A stretch of DNA of 64,000 nt from Planctomycetes bacterium syqfu (GTDB lineage: Bacteria; Planctomycetota; Phycisphaerae; Phycisphaerales; Phycisphaeraceae). The translations under genes and the position numbers were made by a program. A model generated the notes under the pieces. The model did no database searches, was not told where the DNA came from, and saw only the letters and a list, made by a program, of their open reading frames with translations. Shown here one piece after another: positions 9,623-22,559 of this stretch. Position 1 is the stretch's first letter. Every line of letters begins with the position of its first letter. The DNA is taken from NCBI GenBank assembly GCA_020974905.1, contig CP087563.1, positions 3,410,001-3,474,000 of the forward strand, written 5' to 3'.

Positions 9623-11035
9623 TCAGCGTTTTTCCATCAGGTGATATTTGTCAATGGTTTGAATCAGGCTGTAACCTTCAGGCGGCTCTGCGCCATCAAA
9701 CACGATGATATGTTCGGGCAAACGGTCACCGCGATCATGCCACTCCCAGATCGGGCGGTTGGACGCCAGCGAGATCATATTGACCCAATCTGAATCCACC
9801 CCAACGGTGTACCAGTGATTCTCCACGTCAATCTCACGTGTGCGTTGAGCGATACGTTCCATCAAAGCCCAATCCTGATCACGTGCCAACTCAAGTGGGT
9901 ACACCGTCGCGACACGCCCCACCGTCACGATCACATGCATCACCAATAACACAAGGAACACCGTCTTACGCCAGGAGCGTCCCTCAAGCACGCGATGCAA
10001 ACACAGCCACATCACCGGTAAAATCGGCAACACAAACCGTGTCCCACCTTCATACGGGATCGCCCACATCAACACCATGAAAAACAGTGGCATCCATGTG
10101 TAAGCATCCAACTTCCCACGAGCCAACTTGAAAAAACCAATCAGCAGAATCACCGACAACGCAGCATTCAGCACACTCAACGGATGCAGCCACTGCCCGA
10201 TCTCCGGGTAAGTTCGGAACATGCCAGGCACCATCGCCCGACCGATATTGGTCATCCGACGATGCGTGTTGTCCGCAGCGATACTCAGAAGGTTATCCCC
10301 CTGTTTCCCCATGTCATTGGCCAGAAATTCCATGTAAGAACCGTGAACCGTCTTGTCCTCAACAACTGTGGCCCCCTGGTACCACTGCCACCCCACGGCG
10401 GTGCTCCCTGCTACGGCATTGGTTAACACGATCAACAGCAGCGCATGTACCCACATCTTGCGACGCTTGCTCTGCCACGCCAGTAACAGAACCGCAATGG
10501 CAAAGCCCGGTGCGATCATCGACGTGACATTACGCGTCAGCACCATCCAGATCGACAGCGGGATACTGGCAGCCTGCCAAGCCCACGCCAATCCGAATCG
10601 TTGATCCTTGAGTACATCAATGATGTGACGCAGGACCAATGCCATACACACCAGCAAAAAGCAACACCAGATTTCAGAAAGAAATCGCAGGTAGCAAATC
10701 CAGTAACAAACGTTGAACATGACCAGACCGGTGAGCAGAATGGAATCGTCACGATTGATGTAACGTTGGAACCATTGATAACAACCCAGCATCGTGCCGA
10801 CTGCAGCCAACCATTGAAAAATGGACAACACCAGAAACGGTCGATCCCCAAAGGCATAGGCCGGAGCAAAGAAAATGGCCACGCCGATCTGATTGAATAT
10901 CTCCGGTTCCCCCAATGACTCAAGCGTGAAATGTTCCCACAGTGATTGTGCAACGGAAAGATAAACACGCGAGTCACCACCGGATGCCCACCAGATGGGT
11001 TTGATCGCAAATGCCAGTAAAAACGCAAAAATCAC
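9623..11035 (-). CDS. Polytopic GT-C/GT39-like glycosyltransferase, paralog B
   Basis: A 470-residue protein with around ten membrane segments, resembling the convergent neighbour at 8068-9585. Both have an early acidic periplasmic loop (ASGGDSRVYLSVAQS here), a mid-protein GMFRTYPEIGQWLHP segment (GMFKAYSTHGSWMH in the paralog), a YEGGTRFVLPILPV stretch (YHDGNRFLTPMLPV in the paralog) and a soluble C-terminal tail. The start is a GTG at 11035 without a clear Shine-Dalgarno, so the exact N-terminus is uncertain. The pair probably arose by duplication with inversion. Role inferred: membrane-bound sugar transfer to lipid or protein. Confidence 0.68.
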   Translation of the reverse strand: MIFAFLLAFAIKPIWWASGGDSRVYLSVAQSLWEHFTLESLGEPEIFNQIGVAIFFAPAYAFGDRPFLVLSIFQWLAAVGTMLGCYQWFQRYINRDDSILLTGLVMFNVCYWICYLRFLSEIWCCFLLVCMALVLRHIIDVLKDQRFGLAWAWQAASIPLSIWMVLTRNVTSMIAPGFAIAVLLLAWQSKRRKMWVHALLLIVLTNAVAGSTAVGWQWYQGATVVEDKTVHGSYMEFLANDMGKQGDNLLSIAADNTHRRMTNIGRAMVPGMFRTYPEIGQWLHPLSVLNAALSVILLIGFFKLARGKLDAYTWMPLFFMVLMWAIPYEGGTRFVLPILPVMWLCLHRVLEGRSWRKTVFLVLLVMHVIVTVGRVATVYPLELARDQDWALMERIAQRTREIDVENHWYTVGVDSDWVNMISLASNRPIWEWHDRGDRLPEHIIVFDGAEPPEGYSLIQTIDKYHLMEKR

Positions 11036-11190
11036 AAGGCGGCAAAAGCGCCTTTTCTGGTAATATCATCCCCACCATCAATGCACGGGACAACGTCGTC
11101 CATTACCGCTTTACACCTTAAATCGCTTTGTTGATCGGCCCCGTTGTGTGTCATAGGAGCAGAGTATAACAATTTAATGTGTTATTGCCC

Positions 11191-11219
11191 TTGACCTCAA
11201 TCCATTGCATTGATACAAA
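11191..11219 (+). promoter_or_regulatory. Sigma-70 promoter for gnd
   Basis: TTGACC (11191-11196), a 17-base spacer and TACAAA (11214-11219), 79 bases before the gnd ATG. The rest of 11036-11190 shows nothing clear. Confidence 0.55.
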
Positions 11220-11297
11220 ATGTGCTTATTCGTACCGAAACGAAAACATTGAAACAAACCATACGCAACTGTTCGAATTGACCAGGAATCCAAACAC

Positions 11298-12827
11298 ATG
11301 GCAAAGAAAACCAAAGACAATCTCGCAGACGTCGGACTCATCGGCTTGGCCGTCATGGGACAGAATCTTGTCCTGAACATGGCTGACCACGGCTTTAAGG
11401 TCGCTGTCTACAACCGCACCACATCCAAGACGCAGGAATTCCTCGCGGACGCCGAGGCCAATGAACCGGCATTCCCCAACCTCGTGGGCGCCAAGACCCT
11501 CAAGGAATTCGTCGCCTCCATCGCCAAGCCGCGCAAGATCATCATCCTCGTCAAAGCCGGCGCTGGCACCGATGCCGTGATCGACTCACTCGTCCCGCTG
11601 GTCGACAAGGGTGACATCATCATCGACGGTGGTAACGCACTCTGGACCGACACCATTCGCCGCGAAAAAGAACTCACGGCCAAGGGCATCGAGTTCGTCG
11701 GCTCCGGTGTCTCCGGCGGCGAAACCGGTGCACGCTTTGGTCCCTCACTGATGCCCGGCGGTTCCAAGACCGCATGGAAGTCACTGATGCCGATCTGGAA
11801 AGCCATCTCCGCCAAGGTCGACAAGAAGACCGGTGCCGAACTGCGTGGCGCCGAACCCGGCAAGCCCATCAAGGGCGGCGAAGCATGCACGGCCTACATC
11901 GGCCCAGATGGTGCTGGCCATTACGTCAAGATGGTCCACAACGGCATCGAATACATCGACATGCAACTCATCTGCGAAGCCTATGCCATCATGAAAAACC
12001 TGCTTGGCATGAAAGCTGGCGAGATCGGCAAAGTCTTCGAAGAGTGGAACAAGGGCGAACTCTCCAGCTATCTCATCGAAATCACCGCGGACATCCTCCA
12101 GCAGAAAGACCCCCGCAACCCCCGGAAGTTCCTGGTCGATCAAATCCTCGACACCGCTGGCCAAAAAGGAACCGGCAAGTGGACCGCGGTCAGTTCACTG
12201 GACCTTGGCATCCCCGCCAACGCCATCGCCGAAGCCGTCTACGCACGCTGTCTTTCCGCACTGAAAGAAGAACGCGTCTCTGCAAGCAAACTGCTCAAGG
12301 GTCCCAAAGCCAAGAAGTTCACCGGTGGCAAAGCCAAGACCATCGAAGCCATTCGTCAGGCACTTTACTGCTCGAAGATTTGTGCCTACGCCCAGGGCTT
12401 CCAACTGATGACCGAAGCCCAGGTCGAATACAACTGGAAACTCAACTTCGGCCAGATTGCCAAGCTCTGGCGTGGTGGTTGCATCATCCGTGCACGCTTC
12501 CTCCAGAAGATCACCGATGCCTACACCGCAGACAAGAAGCTTCAGAACCTGATGCTCGACCCGTACTTTAAAAAGGCCATCCACAAGGGCCAGGAAGAAT
12601 GGCGTGACATCGTCAGCCTCTGTGCCAAGTTCGGTGTCAGTGCCCCGGCCTTCGGCAGCGCGCTGGCTTACTTCGACGGATACCGCTCCGCCGTGTTGCC
12701 TGCCAACCTGCTTCAAGGCCAGCGTGACTACTTCGGTGCTCACACCTACGAACGCACCGACGAAAAACGTGGCGTCTTCTTCCACACCGACTGGCCCGAA
12801 GAAGGTCGCCCCGAAACCAAGGCATAA
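11298..12827 (+). CDS. gnd: 6-phosphogluconate dehydrogenase, decarboxylating
   Basis: Oxidative pentose phosphate enzyme: 6-phosphogluconate + NADP+ gives ribulose 5-phosphate + CO2 + NADPH. The 509-residue protein has the Rossmann motif [12 protein letters not shown] (13-24), the substrate signature [21 protein letters not shown], the catalytic KMVHNGIEY and a long helical C-terminal domain. It is about 40 residues longer than the E. coli enzyme, with a lysine-rich N-terminus and an insert ([22 protein letters not shown]) before the catalytic motif; the long eukaryote-like form is common. AGGA precedes the ATG. It is monocistronic: promoter at 11191 and strong terminator at 12850. It links the sugar-acid catabolism suggested by locus 2 to NADPH supply. 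Confidence 0.97.
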
Positions 12828-12849
12828 TCGCCTTCGCACAATTGATCTC

Positions 12850-12890
12850 AAAACGACCTTGTCATCACCGGCAAGGTCGTTTTCTTTTTA
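12850..12890 (+). terminator. Intrinsic terminator of gnd
   Basis: AAAACGACCTTG (12850-12861) pairs perfectly with CAAGGTCGTTTT (12872-12883) around a 10-base loop and is followed by CTTTTTA. It lies 23 bases after the gnd stop codon. Confidence 0.9.
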
Positions 12891-12937
12891 TCCCTCTCAA
12901 ACCGCTTGCGGTTTAGTGCGACATGACCACGCAACCA

Positions 12938-13092
12938 GACATTTCAAACGATTCATCTCCATGCTATCGTTGATTTCGTCATTCCCGCGCAGGCGGGAAT
13001 CCAGTGTCAGGCAGTTGACGCTTGCACACTTCACTGGACTCCTGCCTGCGCGGAGTGACGGAGTGTGGAGATGAATGGTTTGAACTGCTCTA
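12938..13092. repeat. Palindromic element of the CCCGCGCAGGCGGGA family, copy 1
   Basis: The core arms are TCATTCCCGCGCAGGCGGGA (12979-12998) and the complementary CTCCTGCCTGCGCGGAG-type arm around 13038-13056. They flank an asymmetric spacer containing GCAGTTGACGCTTGC, which sets an orientation. Outer arms TTCAAACGATTCATCTCC (from 12943) and GGAGATGAATGGTTTGAA extend the palindrome to CTGCTCTA at 13092. It is non-coding. Related copies are at 20586, 41029, 47861 and 62830, with a remnant at 59677. Confidence 0.85.
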
Positions 13093-13106
13093 ACGTTCAA
13101 CATCCC

Positions 13107-13134
13107 TTGACATCAACAATGAACAACCGACAAT
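13107..13134 (+). promoter_or_regulatory. Promoter for the candidate retron RNA
   Basis: A perfect TTGACA (13107-13112), a 16-base spacer and GACAAT (13129-13134). Transcription would begin near 13141, exactly where the predicted a1 arm of the structured RNA begins. Confidence 0.55.
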
Positions 13135-13140
13135 AAACCC

Positions 13141-13259
13141 ACCTTGGCGTGCTGCATGACAGCAGGGATGATGTTTCGTCATCCAGGTCGAATTCTGCGA
13201 TCTGTATACACACAGTTCGTCTGACAAATTGCTTCGCAATTCCGCAGACGAAGCAAGGT
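13141..13259 (+). ncRNA. Candidate retron msr-msd RNA
   Basis: A structured segment directly upstream of the retron-type reverse transcriptase. ACCTTG (13141-13146) is complementary to CAAGGT (13254-13259) and could be the a1/a2 pair. The base right after a1 is G13147, the position expected for a branching guanosine. Two short hairpins follow, as in an msr: TGCTG/CAGCA (13150-13164) and GGATGA/TCATCC (13166-13184). Then comes a long hairpin ending next to a2, as in an msd: TTCGTCTG (13216-13223) with CAGACGAA (13245-13252), and inside it AATTGC/GCAATT (13227-13241) around loop TTC. The a1/a2 pair is short (6 bp), so the assignment is inference. Alternatives are a cis-regulatory leader of the RT gene or an unrelated small RNA. 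Confidence 0.5.
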
Positions 13260-13289
13260 AACCGGCGTGCTGACACGTCGGTTTTTTTC
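13260..13289 (+). terminator. Intrinsic terminator between candidate ncRNA and reverse transcriptase
   Basis: AACCGGCGTG (13260-13269) pairs with CACGTCGGTT (13274-13283), ten pairs including one G-U, loop CTGA, followed by a run of T. It would end the RNA that starts near 13141, leaving the RT (start 13301) to read-through. Part of the stem could alternatively extend the a2 region of the RNA. Confidence 0.75.
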
Positions 13290-13300
13290 TGGGATCAACG

Positions 13301-14302
13301 ATGACGAATCTCCTCACAGGATCGGCCTTGCTACACGGTGCTTCAGTCATCACGCTATTGATCATTGCATTTGTCGTTGGCATGACCGTTCTCAACCGGC
13401 TCCTGAATCTCAAAGCGCGTCATGTCATCAAACGCAAACGCTATGACTTTCGGGCAATGTTCAAAAAGAAATGGAATGTCGAAGAACTTTCACGGCGACT
13501 GGATATCCCGGTCACACAACTACTGCAAACACCGACGAACTATCGACGATGCAAAATCCCCAAGCGGCGTGGCGGGATGCGTCAACTGCTCATCCCCAAT
13601 GATCAACTCAAATCCATTCAACGCCGCATCAATAAACGCCTGCTCAAAAAACTTCGGACGCATGATTGTGCGATTGGCTATGAACCGGGCTTTACCATTG
13701 TCCACAATGCCCTGTTTCATTCGGATATGGCTGTGGTCATCAAGATGGATATCAAAGACTTTTTCCCAAACACCACTGCTGATCGAATCGAGCGTTATTT
13801 CCGACACATCGGCTGGGATAAAAAGGCATCTGCATTACTCACTGAACTGGTGACGCATGATCACACGCTACCCCAGGGCGCCCCGACGAGTCCGCGATTG
13901 AGCAATCTGGTTAACTGCCAGATGGACACGCATCTGGACCTTGTTGCCAAACACTTTCGTGGCGGATACTCGCGTTATGCTGACGATATCACCATCAGTT
14001 TCCCCGAGGACTATCCCACCCATGTGCGGGGCACAGTGCAACGTGTCGCGCGCTGTGTCAAAAAATTCGGTTATCAAATCAATCACAGGAAAACGCAAAT
14101 CTGCCGCCAACATCAACAGCAGAAAGTCACCGGGTTGGTGGTGAACACCAAGGTGAACCTGCCCCGTGAAAAGCGGCGTTGGCTGCGCGCGGTGGAACAC
14201 CGGCTTCAAACACAGGGACAAGCCTCACTGACGCAAGAACAACTCGATGGCTACAAAGCATTGCAGCAGATGATCACTTCACAGACACACCCCAAAACGT
14301 AA
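13301..14302 (+). CDS. Retron-type reverse transcriptase with N-terminal membrane helix
   Basis: A 333-residue RNA-directed DNA polymerase. The palm motifs are complete: first catalytic Asp150 in KMDIKDFF, PQGAPTSPRLSN (191-202), and YADD at 226-229 with Asp228 and Asp229. Two features define retron RTs among bacterial RTs, and both are here: NAxxH (NALFH, 136-140) between RT2 and RT3, and the VTG triplet (VTGLVVN, 276-282) in RT7. WNVEELSRRLDIP and YRRCKIPKRRGGMR match the usual N-terminal region of such enzymes. Unusual is residues 14-31, a hydrophobic helix followed by a strongly basic stretch (KARHVIKRKRYDFRAMFKKK), which predicts a membrane anchor with the catalytic domain in the cytoplasm. 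There is no maturase, HNH or other effector domain and no same-strand partner gene. The Shine-Dalgarno is weak. A retron-like RNA candidate lies just upstream. Confidence 0.9.
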   Translation: MTNLLTGSALLHGASVITLLIIAFVVGMTVLNRLLNLKARHVIKRKRYDFRAMFKKKWNVEELSRRLDIPVTQLLQTPTNYRRCKIPKRRGGMRQLLIPNDQLKSIQRRINKRLLKKLRTHDCAIGYEPGFTIVHNALFHSDMAVVIKMDIKDFFPNTTADRIERYFRHIGWDKKASALLTELVTHDHTLPQGAPTSPRLSNLVNCQMDTHLDLVAKHFRGGYSRYADDITISFPEDYPTHVRGTVQRVARCVKKFGYQINHRKTQICRQHQQQKVTGLVVNTKVNLPREKRRWLRAVEHRLQTQGQASLTQEQLDGYKALQQMITSQTHPKT

Positions 14303-14314
14303 TCACAATCCCAT

Positions 14315-15205
14315 TCATGCCAACATATTTTTTCGATCCTGATACATCTGCCAGAACAAAATCCATGGATCGAGCAGGATCTGCTCATCATCGGTCGCCC
14401 CCGGTTCACAGAGACCAAAGGCAAAATGCGTGTGTTCAAAATCACCAACATGAACGCCTGCTGAAAGAGCGTAGGGCATCCCTGCTTCCAAAGCTGTGTG
14501 CTCGGGCACCAGCAGTTTGATCAGGTGACAGGCACGGATGAGCCATCGCGAACCATCTGCCCATCTGTGCGCCCCTTGCCAGCGATTGTTATTATCACCC
14601 TTGCAAACCTGGTTGTAATACGCATGATCGTCGATGGCAAAAGGTGTCCACAACACCGTCCCTGCCGGGTGATTGATATCCAGTCCACCATGTGCATCGG
14701 CACCAAAGTATGGCCCCATCCAACAGTCCATGCCCTGGTAACAGTCATCGATCTTCAGACCCTCTTTGGGTAACGGACACCAGGGGTGAAGCAACACCGG
14801 GCAGATGCGTTTGCCTATCTCCTGAATCGCAAGTCGGACATCTTTGCGTGGCTTACATTGACCATGTGCTTCATTGAGATGATCAAAGATATGCACGGTT
14901 GCATCAAACCAGATGCGCATACCAAAAAGTTCCCACGGTTCATAGAAACTCCGCTGATCCCCCACCCAGCGAATCAGTTTGACTTCATGCCCATCAATGA
15001 GCATCTGACACCCGCAGTGCAGCACGGTTCTGGCCTGCGACTGGGGCACCTTGATCTGTTTAAGCGTCGTGGAATATACATGAGCCCAGCTGTTTAAAAT
15101 CTCAATGGTATGGGTTGAACCATCAGACAAGGTCAACGCCAGTGTGTCACCATGATCCATCTCAACGGCCAGCAAGGTGTCGCGCGTTTGTTGCGTGATC
15201 TGCAT
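14315..15205 (-). CDS. M23/LytM-fold peptidase-like protein without signal peptide
   Basis: A 296-residue protein with a zinc-peptidase pattern in its C-terminal half. His172 and Asp176 in GADAHGGLDI fit the H-x3-D metal pair, His227 lies in CHLIKLL, and His258/His260 in FEHTHFAFG fit the HxH motif of M23 (lysostaphin/LytM) peptidases. Many cysteines and tryptophans surround the motif. The N-terminal 130 residues are beta-rich and unassigned. No signal peptide or membrane helix is seen, which is odd for a murein hydrolase and suggests a cytosolic or non-classical role. AAGGGG precedes the ATG. The gene is convergent with the RT gene (12 bases between stops), and a small lipoprotein gene lies upstream on the same strand. 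Confidence 0.65.
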   Translation of the reverse strand: MQITQQTRDTLLAVEMDHGDTLALTLSDGSTHTIEILNSWAHVYSTTLKQIKVPQSQARTVLHCGCQMLIDGHEVKLIRWVGDQRSFYEPWELFGMRIWFDATVHIFDHLNEAHGQCKPRKDVRLAIQEIGKRICPVLLHPWCPLPKEGLKIDDCYQGMDCWMGPYFGADAHGGLDINHPAGTVLWTPFAIDDHAYYNQVCKGDNNNRWQGAHRWADGSRWLIRACHLIKLLVPEHTALEAGMPYALSAGVHVGDFEHTHFAFGLCEPGATDDEQILLDPWILFWQMYQDRKNMLA

Positions 15206-15264
15206 GATGTATCAGCCCCTTATTCAAACACAACGAATTATCGTGTAGCCCCCCACAAATAACA

Positions 15265-15292
15265 AACGATCCGATGGTCGCATCGGATCGTT
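15265..15292 (-). terminator. Hairpin terminator after the small lipoprotein gene
   Basis: AACGATCCGATG (15265-15276) pairs perfectly over 12 bases with CATCGGATCGTT (15281-15292), loop of four. On the minus strand it is followed by TGTTATTTG, a moderate T-rich tail. It separates the lipoprotein gene from the M23-like gene. Confidence 0.7.
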
Positions 15293-15322
15293 GTCAGTGC
15301 GTTGTATCAAACGATGGTCTTT

Positions 15323-15469
15323 TCAGAATGCCATCGGATTATCTGCGTAATCCTTGAGGAACTGGTGATCAGTCTGATTGGTGTAAGCGGTTTGATCGAT
15401 GGTGCTGCAACCGCTCATGGCAAAGAGCAGACCAGCGGACAGAACGATAGCGATAACGAGTTTGAACAT
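15323..15469 (-). CDS. Small lipoprotein, 48 aa
   Basis: A very short secreted protein: MFKLVIAIVLSAGLLFAMSGC is a clear lipoprotein signal with lipobox FAMSGC and cleavage before the cysteine. The mature part is only about 28 residues, polar and Thr/Asp/Gln-rich (CSTIDQTAYTNQTD). An in-frame extension to 15514 exists, but ATG 15469 has a near-perfect AAAGGAG Shine-Dalgarno, which decides the start. It resembles entericidin-sized lipoproteins in length only. Function unknown. It has its own terminator. Confidence 0.75.
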   Translation of the reverse strand: MFKLVIAIVLSAGLLFAMSGCSTIDQTAYTNQTDHQFLKDYADNPMAF

Positions 15470-15629
15470 GGCGTTTCTCCTTTGTACTCCAAAATATTTC
15501 AGCGGCAACAGCATGCTTGCAAAACTGGAACCGCCAAGGTTATATTCCAGAATATCTCCAAAAAACGATCACGCCAATAGAAATGTCAAACAATCTGTTC
15601 ACGCGTACAGTCTGTAACGACTGGGCGTT

Positions 15630-18530
15630 TTACTCGTCCTCATAGAGCATGATGGTCTTGAATTGGACCTGTGTGCTGCCGTCTGCATCATCGTCTGCCA
15701 CGAAACACAGGTTGCTCATCGTCCCCGTATAGAACTGACCCACCGGTATTCGGCAGATCATCACACCGCTGCTGTAGGTGTTGGTTTCCTGGTACATGCC
15801 GGTCCATGCTTGCGTGCCACCGAGTTGGAAACATCGCACGGCATTGCCATGGAGATTGTCTTCATCCAAGCCGATGCCGATGATCTCACCGACATCCGTT
15901 GCGGTCACTTCAAATTCCAGCACGGTCTTGGGCGTGACGGTGTAGGCAAGCGGGATGCGCTTCCAGGCATTACCGGTTAGTTCAACGGTGAGGCCACCTT
16001 CGCTGACCGTCGCGTTGCCTGGCTTACCGCCTGAACCGTCCTGGTCCGCACTGTAGGAGACGATGCTGTAATCATCCATATCCACCATGACGCCATCAAT
16101 GCGCGTGTTGTTGTTCCAGTTGAGATTCTCCGTGAGGCTTGTGACGATAGGCATGTCAGGGTAAGACATGGTGGTGAGTTTGATGTCATCGACGATGCTG
16201 TATTCATTGCCACGGACATAGATGCGTGAAAAGCTGGCAAAGTCGGTATCCGTCACGCTGAGTTTTTCCTGGCCGTTGACATAGACGGTGATCAAACCCG
16301 TGCTGGCGTCCCATGTCATGTCGATCTGGGCAAGGCCTGCAAACGTGCTGTCATAGGTCACCGGGTCAGTCCCCGTCACGGCATGACCTGTTGCAGGATG
16401 ACCGGGATCGACATTGCTTGAAATGCTTGAACCGGTGGTAAAGAAGCTGTCCCATGTAGATGAAAGATCGATCTTCTTGATCTGGACATAACCGTTGCCG
16501 TTGTAACTTGTCGCCGACGCCGTACTCCAACCCACCGCATAGCCCTGCGTGCCGTCCGCATTGAGTAAGCCGACTATGTTGTAGCGGCTGAAGTTGGACT
16601 GGATCATCTTGAAACTCAGCGTAAAGTCCTCGGTCACGGTCATCTCCAGTTCACAGTAATTCAAACCATTGCGATGCTTGGATGCCTGGGAGGATAGCGA
16701 TGTCGCATAACCACTGGGTGATGATGTGAACGCGTTGGACACATACGCTGAAGCATTGTTGGGAGTTGAAGGAACCGCGTTAAGCCAAACCGCGCGTAAG
16801 GCAGCATCGTCTGCATAGCCGTCGAAGTTTTCTTCGAAGACCACGATCGGTTCCTGTTTAAAAGCGGGATTGCCAATGGTGTTGTTGGAAATCTGACAGT
16901 CTGCGGCATTGCGAATGTAAAACACATTACCCACCGTGCCACGTCCGTAAGCGTTCAACCCGCCGTAGTCGTTGAACGTGTTGTTGTCGATGATCAGGTC
17001 GGTGACACCCTTGGTTGCGGTGGTATCCGAACCATCGCCTGAAGATTGAATCCAGATGTTGGAGCGTTCGATGTTGGTGAAGGTGTTGTCGAGAACTTGC
17101 GAGCCGCTGCCTGATGGACCTTCACTCAGAAAGCTCGAATCATTGCTGATGACCACAGCAGGTCCCGCAAGGGTATCAAAGTGATTGCCTTGAATCAGCG
17201 CATCCGGCGCTCGCATGAGGACACCCCGTGCACGGTGATTGTAGAAATGGTTGTTGATGACCTGTGCGCCACGACCTGATGCATTGAGATTACAAATCTG
17301 AGAACAACTGCGGACATTCTGTGTTGTCAGCCAAGTTACAAAATTCGGCACGGGATTGGCAAAGACGATTTTCATGACATTGCTCGAATACTCAGGAATC
17401 GTCTTGACGCTGATGCTGGTGATCGGCCCCAGTGAGATCAGTTCGTGCGTTGTCTTATCCATGTAGACAAAGTCGTCCGCAAAGTTGTACAGCGAACCAT
17501 GCGCTTCGGTGTAAATCGTGTAGGCATCCTCCACCTTGATCACCGGCACGAACGATCCGCCGATATTCACCGAGTCATCGCCCATCCCCGTGAAATAACA
17601 GTTACTCACCACCGGCCCCACCGTACACCACTTGGAATGCACACCGTCCGCATTGGTGGAAAACAGGCGTGTGGTGTTGGGCTTTTGCGTGATGGTGCAT
17701 TGATTCAAGGTGACCAGCCCGGAGCTTGAAATATTAAACGCCGTTGCCGGGGCGCTGTAGACGGTAACATTTTCTAGAAGGCTATCACTGGTTGCATTGA
17801 CCTTAACGGCATCAGCAATACGGCGTCCGACGACCACGATTTTCTTGCCGACAAAATCATCGAGCACGGTATTACTCGTCACATAACGATAGACACCGTT
17901 ACCAAGATCGATGACCTGCGAATTGAGATACTGATCCATGAACTCATTGCGTTTCTTGCCGGTGTAGGCATCGTAAAGGTATCCGACATTCTTACCGGTA
18001 TGATCACCGCCAAAGCCATCAATGTGATCCTCGGTCGGTAGCGGGAAGCCGGGATCGATGGTAATGTCCACGTAATGTGAAGCCGGTGTGGTGGCAATGA
18101 CGGTGCCCTGCGTGTGCGGTAAGGGATCGTAATCCACCGAGAGATTGCGCAATGTAATGTGATCCGATGCGTTGACGAAGATGCCATGATGATAGGGGCT
18201 ACCACAAAGCAGTAGCGCCTCATTGGGCGCTTCGATCGTCAGGTTGGAGATACTGCTGATTTTCAGATGTGCAGCAGAACTGTCGGAATCCTGCGGCAAT
18301 GCGAGCTTGTACGTGCCATCAGGAACCTGGAGCACCACCGGGTTGGGTGAGATGGCAGCAGCTGCGTTGATCGCAGCAACAAACGCGGAATAATCATCCG
18401 TCACCCCATTGCCGACCGCGCCATAGTTGGTGACATTGAGCACCGTCTGAGCATGCAGCGAAAACTGCATCGCCAACACAAGACAAAGCGACATCCTCCA
18501 GCAACCCGTCAATCCATTGAAACAATTCAT
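15630..18530 (-). CDS. Secreted right-handed beta-helix glycan-active protein with C-terminal carbohydrate-binding region, paralog 1
   Basis: A 966-residue protein with signal peptide (cleavage near SLHAQT). Residues about 30-110 carry the pectate-lyase-3-like entry motif NVTNYGAVGNGVTDDYSAF. Parallel beta-helix coils follow, with HSKWC, GMGDDSVNIGG (Asp318, Asp319) and NHRARGVLMRAPDALIQGN. These motifs and the Asp pair resemble GH110 alpha-1,3-galactosidases and, more distantly, GH28. After about residue 560 come two beta-sandwich-like regions, a LamG-like one (ENFDGYADDAALR onward) and a terminal one (DYSIVSYSADQDGSGG onward), probably carbohydrate-binding; the two paralogs lack them. ATG 18530 is preferred over an upstream in-frame start because AGAGGT precedes it and the signal peptide follows. 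The exact substrate is inferred at most: a galactan-type algal glycan. Confidence 0.8.
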   Translation of the reverse strand: MNCFNGLTGCWRMSLCLVLAMQFSLHAQTVLNVTNYGAVGNGVTDDYSAFVAAINAAAAISPNPVVLQVPDGTYKLALPQDSDSSAAHLKISSISNLTIEAPNEALLLCGSPYHHGIFVNASDHITLRNLSVDYDPLPHTQGTVIATTPASHYVDITIDPGFPLPTEDHIDGFGGDHTGKNVGYLYDAYTGKKRNEFMDQYLNSQVIDLGNGVYRYVTSNTVLDDFVGKKIVVVGRRIADAVKVNATSDSLLENVTVYSAPATAFNISSSGLVTLNQCTITQKPNTTRLFSTNADGVHSKWCTVGPVVSNCYFTGMGDDSVNIGGSFVPVIKVEDAYTIYTEAHGSLYNFADDFVYMDKTTHELISLGPITSISVKTIPEYSSNVMKIVFANPVPNFVTWLTTQNVRSCSQICNLNASGRGAQVINNHFYNHRARGVLMRAPDALIQGNHFDTLAGPAVVISNDSSFLSEGPSGSGSQVLDNTFTNIERSNIWIQSSGDGSDTTATKGVTDLIIDNNTFNDYGGLNAYGRGTVGNVFYIRNAADCQISNNTIGNPAFKQEPIVVFEENFDGYADDAALRAVWLNAVPSTPNNASAYVSNAFTSSPSGYATSLSSQASKHRNGLNYCELEMTVTEDFTLSFKMIQSNFSRYNIVGLLNADGTQGYAVGWSTASATSYNGNGYVQIKKIDLSSTWDSFFTTGSSISSNVDPGHPATGHAVTGTDPVTYDSTFAGLAQIDMTWDASTGLITVYVNGQEKLSVTDTDFASFSRIYVRGNEYSIVDDIKLTTMSYPDMPIVTSLTENLNWNNNTRIDGVMVDMDDYSIVSYSADQDGSGGKPGNATVSEGGLTVELTGNAWKRIPLAYTVTPKTVLEFEVTATDVGEIIGIGLDEDNLHGNAVRCFQLGGTQAWTGMYQETNTYSSGVMICRIPVGQFYTGTMSNLCFVADDDADGSTQVQFKTIMLYEDE

Positions 18531-18706
18531 TGCGACCTCTTTCGTGATATGGACAAAGAACGACAACCGTACGGAAACGATTAGCAAATGCCCGGAAAGG
18601 TATTGGCAATACAACAACGCACATGTCAGAAACATGCTCAAACAGTGCGTTGGATACGGGTCACAAATTGATAAACGTCTGCCGAGTTAAATCTGGCAGG
18701 AGTTGT

Positions 18707-20518
18707 TTATTTTCTACTGTCTTTGGAGATATCCAATGGGCGGTTGTGAATGGTGTTGTTCTTCCAGATGATCTTGCCGTTGTTGCTGAGAATCACCGGG
18801 TCGTTAGCAAACTCCCTGGAAGACAGTTTGCCAATGGTGTTGTTTTCAATGAGCACGTTATCTGCATTTCTGATGCTAAGGACATTGCCCACTTCACCAC
18901 GACCGTAAATGTTCGGACCACCATAGTGATCAAAACGGTTATTACGGATGATGACGTTAACCACGCCCTGCGTTGCCTTCTCAGACTGATCACCGGCACC
19001 GGAGTAGAGCATGATGTTGGAGCGTTCAATGTTGATGAAGGTATTGTCCTCCACAATCGTGTTATCGCCGGACGGCCCTTCCTGCAGGAAACCGCTGTCG
19101 TTGGCAACCACAATGCCGGGCCCTGCCAGGTTCTCAATACGGTTACCTTTGATGAGACCATCGGGACAGCGCATGAGAATGGCACGCAGGCGGTGATCAT
19201 GGAAGTGACAGTTAATCACCTTGCCCCCACGACCGACATAGTCATAGTTGATCAAGCGTGAACACTTGTATTCCGGTTTCTTTTCTGAGTCCTTCACCGA
19301 GAGATAGGTGATGAGCTTGGGGAGTTTCTGATCGAACGTCAATTGCAGACAGGGACGAGAATAACCTTCGACCTTCACGCCTTTGATGTTGGTGATGTTG
19401 CCCAGGCGGACATGGCCCAAGGTGGTGCGGTCGACGATGTAATATTCGCCGATCTTGTGGTTCACCGTGCTGTGCGCCTGGACGACCATGGTGTAATCAT
19501 CGGGCTGCTCAATGACGGGCGTGTAGGTGCCACCGATGTTGACGCTGTCATCACCCATGCCGGTGAACTCAGAGTTACTGAGCACCGGGCCGTTTGCACA
19601 CCACTTGGAATGCAAGCCGTCGGCATTGGTGGACATCATACGGTCGGTCCCCGGCTTGCGGATGATCTTGCAGTGATCGATCACCACGTCCTTGCTGCTT
19701 GAGACATTCCAACCACAAGCTGGTGAATGATAGATGTGCACCTGCTGCATCAGGCATCCGTTGGTGTCATTGATTTTCACACCATCGGCTTTACGGCGGG
19801 AGACCACGGTGAACACCTTGCCCACCATCTCCGGCTCGACAGGATTGGACGTCTTGAACCGGTAGACACCGTTACCCAGATCCCTGGGGATGTTCTTCCA
19901 CATGTATTGGTCGTAGAACTGATTGAGTTTCTTGCCGGTCCTGGCATCGAAGATGTAGCCAACGTTCTTGGTGTTGACGATCTTCGTCGCGTGATTAAAG
20001 TCCATATGCGGGAGCATTGGGGACGGATAACCATCTGCCAATTTCATATCAATGAAATTCTTTTCAGGATCAACCGAAACAATCGTACCTTGTGATTGGC
20101 AATAGGGATCGTAATCCACTGCCACATTCTTGACGGTGATATTCTGACTGCCATCGACAAATATGCCATGTCGGTAGGGATTCCCCATCAATAGCAAGGG
20201 ACGGTTTTCACCTTCAATGGTGATGTTTTGCATGCCGGCAATGGTCAGGTTGCCACCTTCGGCCGAAGCCTTGTTCGGATCATACAAACCAAGACGGTAT
20301 GTGCCATGGGGAATCTTGATCGTCACGGGTTGAGGTTGATGTTGGCCTGCAGCTTCCAACACTTTGACGAACGCTGGTGCGTCGTCGGCCACACCGTCAC
20401 CCTTGGCACCAAAGTCTTTGATGTTCAGTGTCGTCTGGGCTTGTACACCCGAGCATCCGACCAGAGAGACGAACAGGCAAACAGCCAACAAACGCATGAC
20501 ATTGAATGACACGAGCAT
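18707..20518 (-). CDS. Secreted beta-helix glycan-active lipoprotein, paralog 2
   Basis: A 603-residue paralog of its two neighbours without the C-terminal binding region. The signal sequence LLAVCLFVSLVGC ends in a lipobox, so it is probably a membrane-anchored lipoprotein, unlike the other two. The helix begins with NIKDFGAKGDGVADDAPAF and contains HSKWC, GMGDDSVNIGG (Asp323, Asp324), HDHRLRAILMRCPDGLIKGN and NDSGFLQEGPSGDNT. These motifs are shared by all three copies and probably mark the active site. GH110-like retaining or inverting galactosidase activity is possible, not shown. AAGGA precedes ATG 20518. It follows the third paralog on the same strand, with a palindromic element inserted between them. 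Confidence 0.8.
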   Translation of the reverse strand: MLVSFNVMRLLAVCLFVSLVGCSGVQAQTTLNIKDFGAKGDGVADDAPAFVKVLEAAGQHQPQPVTIKIPHGTYRLGLYDPNKASAEGGNLTIAGMQNITIEGENRPLLLMGNPYRHGIFVDGSQNITVKNVAVDYDPYCQSQGTIVSVDPEKNFIDMKLADGYPSPMLPHMDFNHATKIVNTKNVGYIFDARTGKKLNQFYDQYMWKNIPRDLGNGVYRFKTSNPVEPEMVGKVFTVVSRRKADGVKINDTNGCLMQQVHIYHSPACGWNVSSSKDVVIDHCKIIRKPGTDRMMSTNADGLHSKWCANGPVLSNSEFTGMGDDSVNIGGTYTPVIEQPDDYTMVVQAHSTVNHKIGEYYIVDRTTLGHVRLGNITNIKGVKVEGYSRPCLQLTFDQKLPKLITYLSVKDSEKKPEYKCSRLINYDYVGRGGKVINCHFHDHRLRAILMRCPDGLIKGNRIENLAGPGIVVANDSGFLQEGPSGDNTIVEDNTFINIERSNIMLYSGAGDQSEKATQGVVNVIIRNNRFDHYGGPNIYGRGEVGNVLSIRNADNVLIENNTIGKLSSREFANDPVILSNNGKIIWKNNTIHNRPLDISKDSRK

Positions 20519-20585
20519 GTCAATCCTTTCAAATGAAGTTACTTCACATCGAAGTCAAACAGAAACGCTGCTAACAACGGAGCAT

Positions 20586-20744
20586 TAGAGCGATGCAAAG
20601 AATTAATCTCCACCCTCCGTCACTCCCGCGCAGGCGGGAGTCCAGTGGAATTTGTAATTTTCTACTGCATGCCACTGGATTCCCGCCTGCGCGGGAATGA
20701 CGAAAAATACGATGGCATGGCGTTTAATTATTTGAACTGCTCTA
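20586..20744. repeat. Palindromic element of the CCCGCGCAGGCGGGA family, copy 2
   Basis: The ends are TAGAGC (20586-20591) and GCTCTA (20739-20744), giving terminal inverted repeats that continue as (T)TCAAATAATTAA-like sequence. The core has CACTCCCGCGCAGGCGGGAG and its complement around 20682-20700. The right terminal GCTCTA contains the stop codon of the beta-helix gene at 20742. Confidence 0.88.
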
Positions 20745-22520
20745 GTCTTTCTCAGGAACCGGCTGACTGTTTTTATCCAAACGCGTCTGCTGACCATCGA
20801 GCGTGTTGTTTTTCCAAGTCACCTTTCCAAGGTTCTTGGTCATGATCACCGGCACGTTTTCATATCCGGGGTTAGGCTTGGCGATGGTGTTGTTTTCTAT
20901 CACCAGGTCCGCCCCGCTGCTCAGATAAAACGGGTTACCGTTGATACCACGCCCGTAGGGATCATCACCGCCATAGTTTTCGATACGGTTATTGCGAATA
21001 ATCAGGCCACGCACTTTGGGGGGCAGGGACGATGCGATGTAGATATTGGAGCGTTCGATGTTGACCATCACGTTGTCTTCAATGATGGTGTTATCACCAC
21101 AAGGTCCTTCGGTGAGGAATCCGCCGTCATTGCTGACAACAATGGCCGGGCCGGAAAGATTTTCGATGCGATTGCCTTTGATCAAACTGTCGGGACCACG
21201 CATGAGAATGCCCCGGACGCGGTGATTGTAAAAGTGATTGTTGATGACCTTGGCATAGCGACCACAGGCATTGAGATTGAGCACCTGTGAACATTTCTTG
21301 ATGTTGCCGTTTTCTTTCCATGTCACCAAATCCGGCAGCGGGGAATCAAAGATGAGTTTGATGCAATGCTTTTTGAAGCCTTCGACTTTGGCGCCGCCCC
21401 ATTTAACCATCTTGGGGAGTTTGAGATGTTCATCGTGACCGGGGCTTGCCATGATCAGGTCGGTGGGATAGTTGGTGATCGAGCCATGCGCCTGGACGAC
21501 GATGGTGCGATCATCAAGTTTTTCAAGGACGGGCGTATAGGAACCGCCGATGTTCACCGAGTCATCGCCCATGCCGGTGAAGGTGCTGTTGCTTAGCGTC
21601 GGACCAACGGGACACCACTTGGAATGCAAGCCGTCCGCATTGCTGCTCATGGCACGCGGTGCGCCGGAGACATCAGGACGGTGAATAATTCTGGACTTGT
21701 CGATGGTGATGCGGGTGCTGCTTGCCACGTTGTAGCCGCAGGACGGGGCGCTGTAGACGGTGGCATTTTCAATCAGGCAATCGGTCGAATCATTGACCTG
21801 ATACGCACTGGCTTTACGGCGTCCGACGACTGCAAAACGGCGACCGACCATGTCATCACGCACGACATTGGATGACTTGTAGCGATATTGACCATCCCCC
21901 AAATCTTCGACCTGCTTGCGGAGATACTGGCTGTAATACTGGTTCTGCTTGATGTTGGTTTGAGCATCATACAGGTAACCGACCGAATGACCTTTTTTGC
22001 CGGAGAAAGCATCAATGTGTTCATCGGTTGGCAAGGGATAGCCGGGATCGACTTTCATGGTGATCAATTGTGATTCAGGATCGACCTTGGTGATCATGCC
22101 CTGCGTGTAAGGCAACGGATCATAATCGATGGCAAGATTCTTGACGGTGACATTGGTGCATTTGTAAATGCCAACGCCCTGGTGATACGGGCTGGTCATG
22201 ATGAGCAACGTATTCTCACCACCACTGACAATCACATCACGATGCGACATGATCATAAAATGCGCCTTGGTATCAGCATTTTCATCGAGGCCCAAACGGT
22301 ACGTGCCATCAGGAATCAACAACGTCACCGGCCGCTGCGAGATGGTCCGCAACGATTCCAAGGCCTTGTTGAGTGCAGGCAGATCATCAGCTTTCCCATC
22401 CCCCACCGCCCCGAAGTCCTTGACATTGACCACGGTCTGAGCTTGAAGTGACATCGCTGTGGTCAACAGGATCAATACACACAACGATACGGATTTGAAA
22501 AATTGACAACTGAGTTTCAT
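20742..22520 (-). CDS. Secreted beta-helix glycan-active protein, paralog 3
   Basis: A 592-residue protein with a cleavable signal peptide (MKLSCQFFKSVSLCVLILLTTAMSLQA). It is the same parallel beta-helix as its two downstream neighbours: NVKDFGAVGDGKADDLPAL, HSKWC, GMGDDSVNIGG (Asp319, Asp320), NHRVRGILMRGPDSLIKGN, NDGGFLTEGPCGDNT. An in-frame TTG at 22532 is less likely than ATG 22520. It starts only 39 bases after the LacI-type regulator on the same strand, so the two are probably co-transcribed. Its stop codon lies inside the terminal repeat of a palindromic element, so the original C-terminus may have been changed by that insertion. Substrate: inferred alpha-galactoside-containing polysaccharide. 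Confidence 0.8.
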   Translation of the reverse strand: MKLSCQFFKSVSLCVLILLTTAMSLQAQTVVNVKDFGAVGDGKADDLPALNKALESLRTISQRPVTLLIPDGTYRLGLDENADTKAHFMIMSHRDVIVSGGENTLLIMTSPYHQGVGIYKCTNVTVKNLAIDYDPLPYTQGMITKVDPESQLITMKVDPGYPLPTDEHIDAFSGKKGHSVGYLYDAQTNIKQNQYYSQYLRKQVEDLGDGQYRYKSSNVVRDDMVGRRFAVVGRRKASAYQVNDSTDCLIENATVYSAPSCGYNVASSTRITIDKSRIIHRPDVSGAPRAMSSNADGLHSKWCPVGPTLSNSTFTGMGDDSVNIGGSYTPVLEKLDDRTIVVQAHGSITNYPTDLIMASPGHDEHLKLPKMVKWGGAKVEGFKKHCIKLIFDSPLPDLVTWKENGNIKKCSQVLNLNACGRYAKVINNHFYNHRVRGILMRGPDSLIKGNRIENLSGPAIVVSNDGGFLTEGPCGDNTIIEDNVMVNIERSNIYIASSLPPKVRGLIIRNNRIENYGGDDPYGRGINGNPFYLSSGADLVIENNTIAKPNPGYENVPVIMTKNLGKVTWKNNTLDGQQTRLDKNSQPVPEKD

Positions 22521-22559
22521 AGCAATTTCCAATGGACAAAAGTTTCATGCGTCTGATTG

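Follow-up and report, generated by a model that had tools for sequence, protein, structure and literature searches.

A probable msr-msd RNA and its reverse transcriptase as a two-part chromosomal unit in a planctomycete

The usual description of a retron is that of a three-part system, with an msDNA particle that restrains a linked toxin. In the window (the whole stretch of 64,000 nucleotides that was analysed), a region at 13141-13259 lies between a 6-phosphogluconate dehydrogenase (6PGD) gene (11298-12827) and the gene of a 333-residue reverse transcriptase (RT; 13301-14302). The first-pass annotation had read this region, in the order a1, G, msr hairpins, msd hairpin and a2, as an msr-msd. 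The locus raises the question of whether this RNA is the template of a retron and, if so, with which partners such a retron would work. Our analysis supports the proposed order: because the stems covary and the RNA accompanies one group of RTs, 13141-13259 is very probably the msr-msd RNA of a chromosomal retron.

Layout and conserved fold of the RNA

The features of the unit, in window coordinates, are as follows.

13102-14330, no strand assigned: whole unit, the block absent at the same place in a same-genus genome (limits from blastn matches of the flanks)
13107-13134, plus strand: promoter-like site (TTGACA 13107-13112, 16-bp spacer, GACAAT 13129-13134), with the transcript start expected at 13141
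13141-13146, plus strand: a1 (ACCTTG), pairing with a2 (sequence, fold and covariance-model match)
13147, plus strand: candidate priming guanosine directly 3' of a1, a role assigned from known retrons as described in excerpts of PMC6868368 and PMC11754653
13150-13164, plus strand: msr stem-loop 1 (SL1; fold and covariation)
13166-13184, plus strand: msr stem-loop 2 (SL2), candidate RT recognition hairpin with an 8-bp stem and a UUU loop
13185-13203, plus strand: msr stem-loop 3 (SL3; fold and covariation), the weakest helix
13216-13252, plus strand: msd hairpin, expected msDNA template (fold and covariation)
13254-13259, plus strand: a2 (CAAGGT; sequence, fold and covariance-model match)
13260-13288, plus strand: terminator-like hairpin and U run after a2, its stem with a wobble pair (sequence and fold)
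13301-14302, plus strand: retron-type RT of 333 aa, with NALFH, QGAPTSP, YADD and VTG in the RT core

The complementarity of ACCTTG at 13141 to CAAGGT at 13254 lies where it had been annotated and makes up helix 1 of a conserved fold. The guanosine noted next to a1 is likewise in place, and a G stands directly after a1 in 55 of 55 copies of the RNA. The long hairpin ending beside a2 also keeps its annotated limits and covaries among relatives. Only the number of short hairpins before the msd had to be corrected, from two to three (SL1, SL2 and SL3).

The region folds with a minimum free energy of -45.1 kcal/mol (z -3.7), which was equalled by 0 of 200 shuffled sequences. The annotation had named a check, whether the stems covary among relatives; it was run on three alignments (11, 22 and 33 copies), and compensatory changes are present in all five helices. 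In a MAFFT alignment of 11 copies, with the structure taken from one of the 11, 82.8% of cells are paired. Sliding the partners by 1 to 3 columns lowers this to 36-45%; both sides are altered in 22 of 34 pairs. The other two alignments were fitted to a covariance model. For the 22 copies, 91.5% of cells are paired (35-42% when slid), with 24/34 pairs altered on both sides; for 33 further copies, which were not used for model building, these values are 93.1% (35-47%) and 26/34. One of five measures, the number of further pair types, was not above shuffles with 11 copies (102/500) or 22 copies (135/500) but was above them with the 33 further copies (2/500). From a MAFFT alignment of 20 copies, which is poor around the msd, where length varies, RNAalifold retrieved no more than a1/a2, SL2 and a three-pair helix that is doubtful. 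L010 and L013 were absent from alignment A1, and nine more copies from A2, before model R1 was made; A4 includes all 22 copies, and A5, with four weak extra matches, was not used for counts.

Two doubts had been attached to the msr-msd reading. One, that a1 and a2 share only 6 bp, stands as to length; yet the pairing is real, because the six pairs are kept in 98.5% of cells in 22 copies and 96% in 33 copies, with compensatory changes. The other, that the msd is short, is answered by the relatives, in which the msd hairpin ranges from ~15 nt (L016) to ~70 nt (L013) among otherwise similar copies; all 8 modelled msd pairs are altered on both sides. SL2 is paired in 96% (22 copies) and 99.6% (33 copies) of cells, its loop being UUU in 38/55 copies and NUU in 53/55, and SL3 is the weakest helix (~82%). 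In L010 (1088-1253) and L013 (2601-2775) the msd region forms very long, nearly perfect hairpins in copies that are otherwise normal. In addition, 26 of 55 copies have T[CT]GCA in their 3' part, often in the msd apical loop (alignments A4 and A8; a raw count).

The annotated TTGACA/GACAAT promoter, positioned to start the transcript at a1, has correct coordinates, and its register with a1 recurs in relatives. In this register, at least 9 of the 12 consensus letters are matched in 26 of 52 copies, versus 0.25% of control positions. Downstream of a2, a strict perfect-stem scan detects a hairpin with some T run in 33 of 52 copies, versus 8.2% of control places; it gives nothing for the window's own copy because the stem there has a wobble pair. 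Both counts cover 52 of the 55 RNA copies (L050, L064 and L075 left out). Since promoter-like sites and terminator-like hairpins frame the RNA copies, the RNA most likely forms a separate short transcript, as predicted from these signals.

One group of reverse transcriptases and its RNA

A covariance model built from 11 copies at 10 loci, none of them from the window's own six-locus group at the 6PGD gene, matches exactly 13141-13259 (42.5 bits, E 2.3e-8; 172 kb searched). In the window's 7.4 Mb genome, the same model has this region as its sole match at E<=1 (E 1e-6; 150 of 2187 first-look candidates scored). The RNA family is absent from the Rfam version searched: no family matches 13141-13259 at the gathering threshold, and relaxed thresholds give six weak matches, none to a retron family.

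The RNA was then compared with the distribution of the RT. Among 301 genomes of the order, a sample from a larger group, 21 RTs (including that of the window) were found at E <= 9.1e-57, the next at 8.6e-40. All 21 have the RNA beside them, in 22 copies, as L009 has two in tandem. A second model, built from all 22 copies, matches 22 of the 301 genomes, namely the 21 genomes that carry a group RT, and also G145, in which the RNA runs to a contig edge; this order-wide scan, with strict filters and ~13 candidates scored per genome, gave no further match. In 392 genomes of the phylum, the RNA accompanies 24/24 further RTs (L053-L076, down to E 1.9e-54), with two RNAs in L054 and a weak match in L064 (E 4e-4); L077 and L078 (RT E 4.5e-47 and 8.0e-46) have none in this search. 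Among named genomes, 10 of 10 group loci carry the RNA, three of them apparently counted before. Five of these loci are labelled Phycisphaerae, Phycisphaerales or Phycisphaeraceae, three Planctomycetota, one Pirellulales and one Candidatus Methylomirabilis (L086). In the same search of 80 loci, 70 more distant RT relatives show no RNA match below E 0.11. Altogether, one RT group with 52 intact members at distinct loci has the RNA next to every one of them; the copies number 55 in all.

Matches outside the group are weak. L026 gives E 0.0066 and L023 E 0.088; L156, L157, L127, L138, L144 and L139 give E 0.11-0.5 among the 80 loci, and five of these six fall at E 0.015-0.067 in a smaller search of 11 loci. 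Some distant RTs of Bacteroidota and Verrucomicrobiota have weak upstream matches with the same SL2 (E 0.015-0.16, 11 loci). An exception to strict co-occurrence of RT and RNA is G169, where an 80-residue frame (G169:C7:171641-171820, L278) matches the RT's end over 60 residues at 55% identity and no RNA lies within 4 kb around it; this RT fragment is probably the remnant of a decayed copy. Among viral contigs, the group was not seen in the best 80 of 383 matches, the best RT match having 38% identity. On one viral contig (L179, 4179-4439), an RT of 38% identity is preceded by two tandem stretches that match the RNA model weakly (E 0.0035 and 0.034).

Some loci of the group depart from the usual arrangement. 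L009 (1113-1220 and 1279-1383) and L054 (2611-2697 and 2800-2915) each have tandem RNAs with differing msd parts and a single RT, which may serve two templates. In L014 (2444-2548), the RNA and its RT are on opposite strands, and the RNA reads away from the RT.

The window RT has the features that mark retron RTs, namely YADD, the NAxxH and VTG motifs and a fold nearest to known retron RTs. According to excerpts of PMC6868368, NAxxH (region X) and VTG (region Y) are the motifs of retron RTs. Across 33 RTs, A137, H140, YADD and G278 are invariant. Two motif letters vary: NAxxH retains its N in 23 of these RTs and VTG its T in 26, and the window RT has both. Its best PADLOC model is RT_XIII (2.7e-73), which is also the best model for all seven RTs tested, the window's included. 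The NCBIfam retron St85 model scores it below its cut-off. The nearest PDB sequence is Ec86. With an AlphaFold2 model of the window RT (mean pLDDT 92), the first 18 Foldseek matches in the PDB are all chains of retron complexes, followed by group II introns from 1.4e-11.

In a tree of 108 RTs, 50 group RTs form one side of a branch (SH-aLRT 92). This was a quick tree without bootstrap, containing 50 of the 52 group RTs (L064 and L075 left out) and 58 of the 70 outsiders (10 left out, 2 with broken frames), with RT starts set by script and five altered by eye. The group's four nearest neighbours in it are the long fusions L106 and L116 and the short L089 and L095; L106 and L116 have >500 residues before the RT core. 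The window's genome also holds a second, distant RT (G000:C1:5196819-5197277; 25% identity, 345 aa open frame).

Residues 9-54 of the window RT form one predicted helix with a hydrophobic stretch ahead of the RT core. Judged by hydropathy ahead of the core, 20 of 52 group RTs have a predicted hydrophobic helix at the N-terminus, as against 0 of 58 outsiders. A 26-row subgroup of the tree (SH-aLRT 99) includes all 19 tree RTs scored with the helix, among them the window's, and seven without. As these helices, by eye, are unlike one another and some RTs seem to have two, they would fit an anchor better than a specific toxin, and the prediction suggests that the window RT is probably located at the membrane. 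An amphipathic N-terminus in the RTs without the helix was considered and dropped, their N-terminal hydrophobic moment being at background (0.53 vs 0.52). A recurrent start, MG(L/F).., is found in 25 of 32 helix-less group RTs (a loose pattern), and four of the 58 outsiders (L115, L122, L124 and L132) open, by eye, with a similar MGLFDFLKRLL-like hydrophobic motif.

A two-part unit and its possible working

The extent of the unit can be read from the same-genus genome G039. At its locus L259, flanks collinear with window 10662-13101 (80% identity) and 14331-15554 (82%, to the locus end) lie 29 bp apart, and only 13102-14330 is missing. These limits come from blastn; a base-by-base alignment scattered into chance pieces and was not used. 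The comparison of surroundings took in 31 neighbourhoods of 8 to 21 kb, from 30 distinct loci, and counted ORFs from 70 aa upward; no gene except the RT is common to all of them. Apart from it and frames overlapping the RT or RNA, no ORF family occurs in more than 7 of the 31, and the family found in 7 sits at scattered places. A linked effector gene, usual in defence retrons though not strictly defining, was found in none of these neighbourhoods. Because the promoter-RNA-RT block alone is missing in G039 and the neighbourhoods share no other gene, the unit that comes and goes consists of promoter, RNA, terminator and RT; it is a two-part unit with no linked effector. Ten downstream same-strand neighbours in relatives are mixed (pyruvate kinase, GidA, a sigma factor and others), and PADLOC matches neither these (0/10) nor the window's neighbours (0/7; 0/17 together).

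The 6PGD gene is common to the six loci of the window's own group, at 1.6 to 6.9 kb, and the RTs of these loci form one branch (SH-aLRT 98). Since the six loci both keep this gene and group together, they probably descended in place. The shared 6PGD linkage also favours loss of the unit in G039 rather than gain in the others.

Two further observations concern the surrounding DNA. An inverted-repeat element (GTCATTCCCGCGCAGGCGGGAATCCAG...) lies at 12975-13070, just upstream of the retron block, with ~40 genomic places listed (72 matches counting both strands; 297 candidates, of which 40 were scored); a like element lies at the empty site in G039, downstream of 6PGD. On the minus strand, 15630-22532 encodes three large similar-looking proteins in a row, two of which were scanned and match right-handed beta-helix (pectate-lyase-like) families.

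We propose that the unit's own promoter would drive the RNA from a1 to the terminator just past a2. By analogy with known retrons, the RT from the next gene would bind this RNA, probably via the UUU hairpin SL2, prime at guanosine 13147 after a1 and copy the msd hairpin into a short branched msDNA, perhaps of 50-70 nt here. The resulting RT-msDNA particle would most likely be held at the membrane by the N-terminal hydrophobic helix, since the RT of the window's branch carries one. The predicted entity is a retron variant that has no linked effector and an RT that is often membrane-anchored.

As to its role, the odds are roughly even between defence in which the membrane-bound RT would itself be the output and defence through an effector encoded elsewhere. 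The former, a self-contained retron of RNA and membrane-anchored RT, in which the particle would be both sensor and output, is a tentative proposal. Its output could be, for instance, membrane disturbance when the msDNA is attacked or altered, and the unit would long have been kept at one chromosomal place in these bacteria. If so, a separate effector would be dispensable for a retron, or the retron would serve a non-defence function of the cell. The competing proposal, equally tentative and a rival for function only, is that the msDNA restrains a toxin in trans. It agrees with excerpts of PMC12548924 and PMC11754653, in which retrons typically comprise an effector, and with the lack of one linked to the window unit. 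However, the unit comes and goes as RNA and RT alone (in one genome, G039), the PADLOC comparison of neighbours gave nothing, and a distant toxin would be freed on loss of the retron, unless it was lost too.

Other explanations deny the RNA its role as a retron template. Its position just upstream of the RT, with a terminator-like hairpin after it, could suggest that the RNA regulates the RT as a structured leader or attenuator. We consider this improbable and set it aside because of L014, with its RNA on the opposite strand, and L009 and L054, with their tandem RNAs. Moreover, the msd hairpin changes in sequence and size while its pairing is kept, and the UUU-loop hairpin and the G after a1 are retron features in excerpts of PMC6868368. 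That the RNA belongs to another kind of defence RT (DRT) is less likely still: DRT2 likewise uses a neighbouring RNA, but the window RT scores far better on retron models (RT_XIII 2.7e-73 vs Drt2 2.3e-13), DRT2 appears among the structural matches only at 1.9e-10, behind the 18 retron chains, and the a1-msr-msd-a2 order is present. Chance structure, which the six base pairs of a1/a2 alone would allow, has a negligible probability, given that a model free of the window copy finds the RNA and that all five helices covary.

Comparison with known retrons

Among the papers listed in literature searches on retrons in Planctomycetes/Planctomycetota, none was recognised as describing such a retron; the group may be named in the 2020 retron classification. 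The window unit departs from known retrons in lacking a linked effector and in having an RT with a hydrophobic helix. With a broad group that has no linked toxin and an RT often bearing a helix, effector-less retron function becomes directly testable, and natural msd hairpins of ~15 to ~70 nt would be useful for single-stranded DNA production.

Retron-Eco1 (Ec86) shares with the window unit the order a1, G, msr hairpins, msd, a2 and RT, the 8-bp hairpin with a UUU loop (GGATGTTGTTTCGGCATCC in L275, GGATGATGTTTCGTCATCC in the window), and the RT core and motifs. In Eco1 this hairpin is bound by a C-terminal RT fragment, according to excerpts of PMC6868368; on a public contig, we found it ~180 bases upstream of the matched part of an RT that fits Ec86 chains at E 1.3e-183. 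The two differ in that L275 has a longer a1/a2 and the context TAGC, compared to 6 bp and UGG in the window, and in SL3, a conserved helix in the window's group where the Eco1 fold has only a small stem. Model R2 gave no match on Eco1 contigs and so does not support homology to the Eco1 RNA. The priming context in the group as a whole is UGG or CGG, unlike the known contexts TAGC, CAGA, CAGC, GAGC and ACGC in excerpts of PMC6868368.

PADLOC type XIII provides the best RT model for the group, as described above. This type is linked to the myxococcal Mx162 retron. The RT_XIII match begins at model position 140 of 469 and at residue 76 of the window RT; the model thus has ~140 positions before its matching part, whereas the group has a short N-terminus and stands apart in the tree from many RTs with ~150-residue N-termini. 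None of the seven window neighbours matches any PADLOC model, and type XIII accessory genes were not seen among them. As the group RT lacks the long N-terminal part of the model, membership in type XIII was set aside. A point in common is the probable descent in place, vertical inheritance being assumed for some myxococcal retrons too (excerpts of PMC6868368).

A further parallel is Retron-Bth1, which has no apparent effector gene and makes RT-DNA, as described in excerpts of PMC12548924. It is an isolated case, found on an extrachromosomal contig, and its RT gene contains an intron, whereas the unit described here represents a whole group and is chromosomal in the window's genome.
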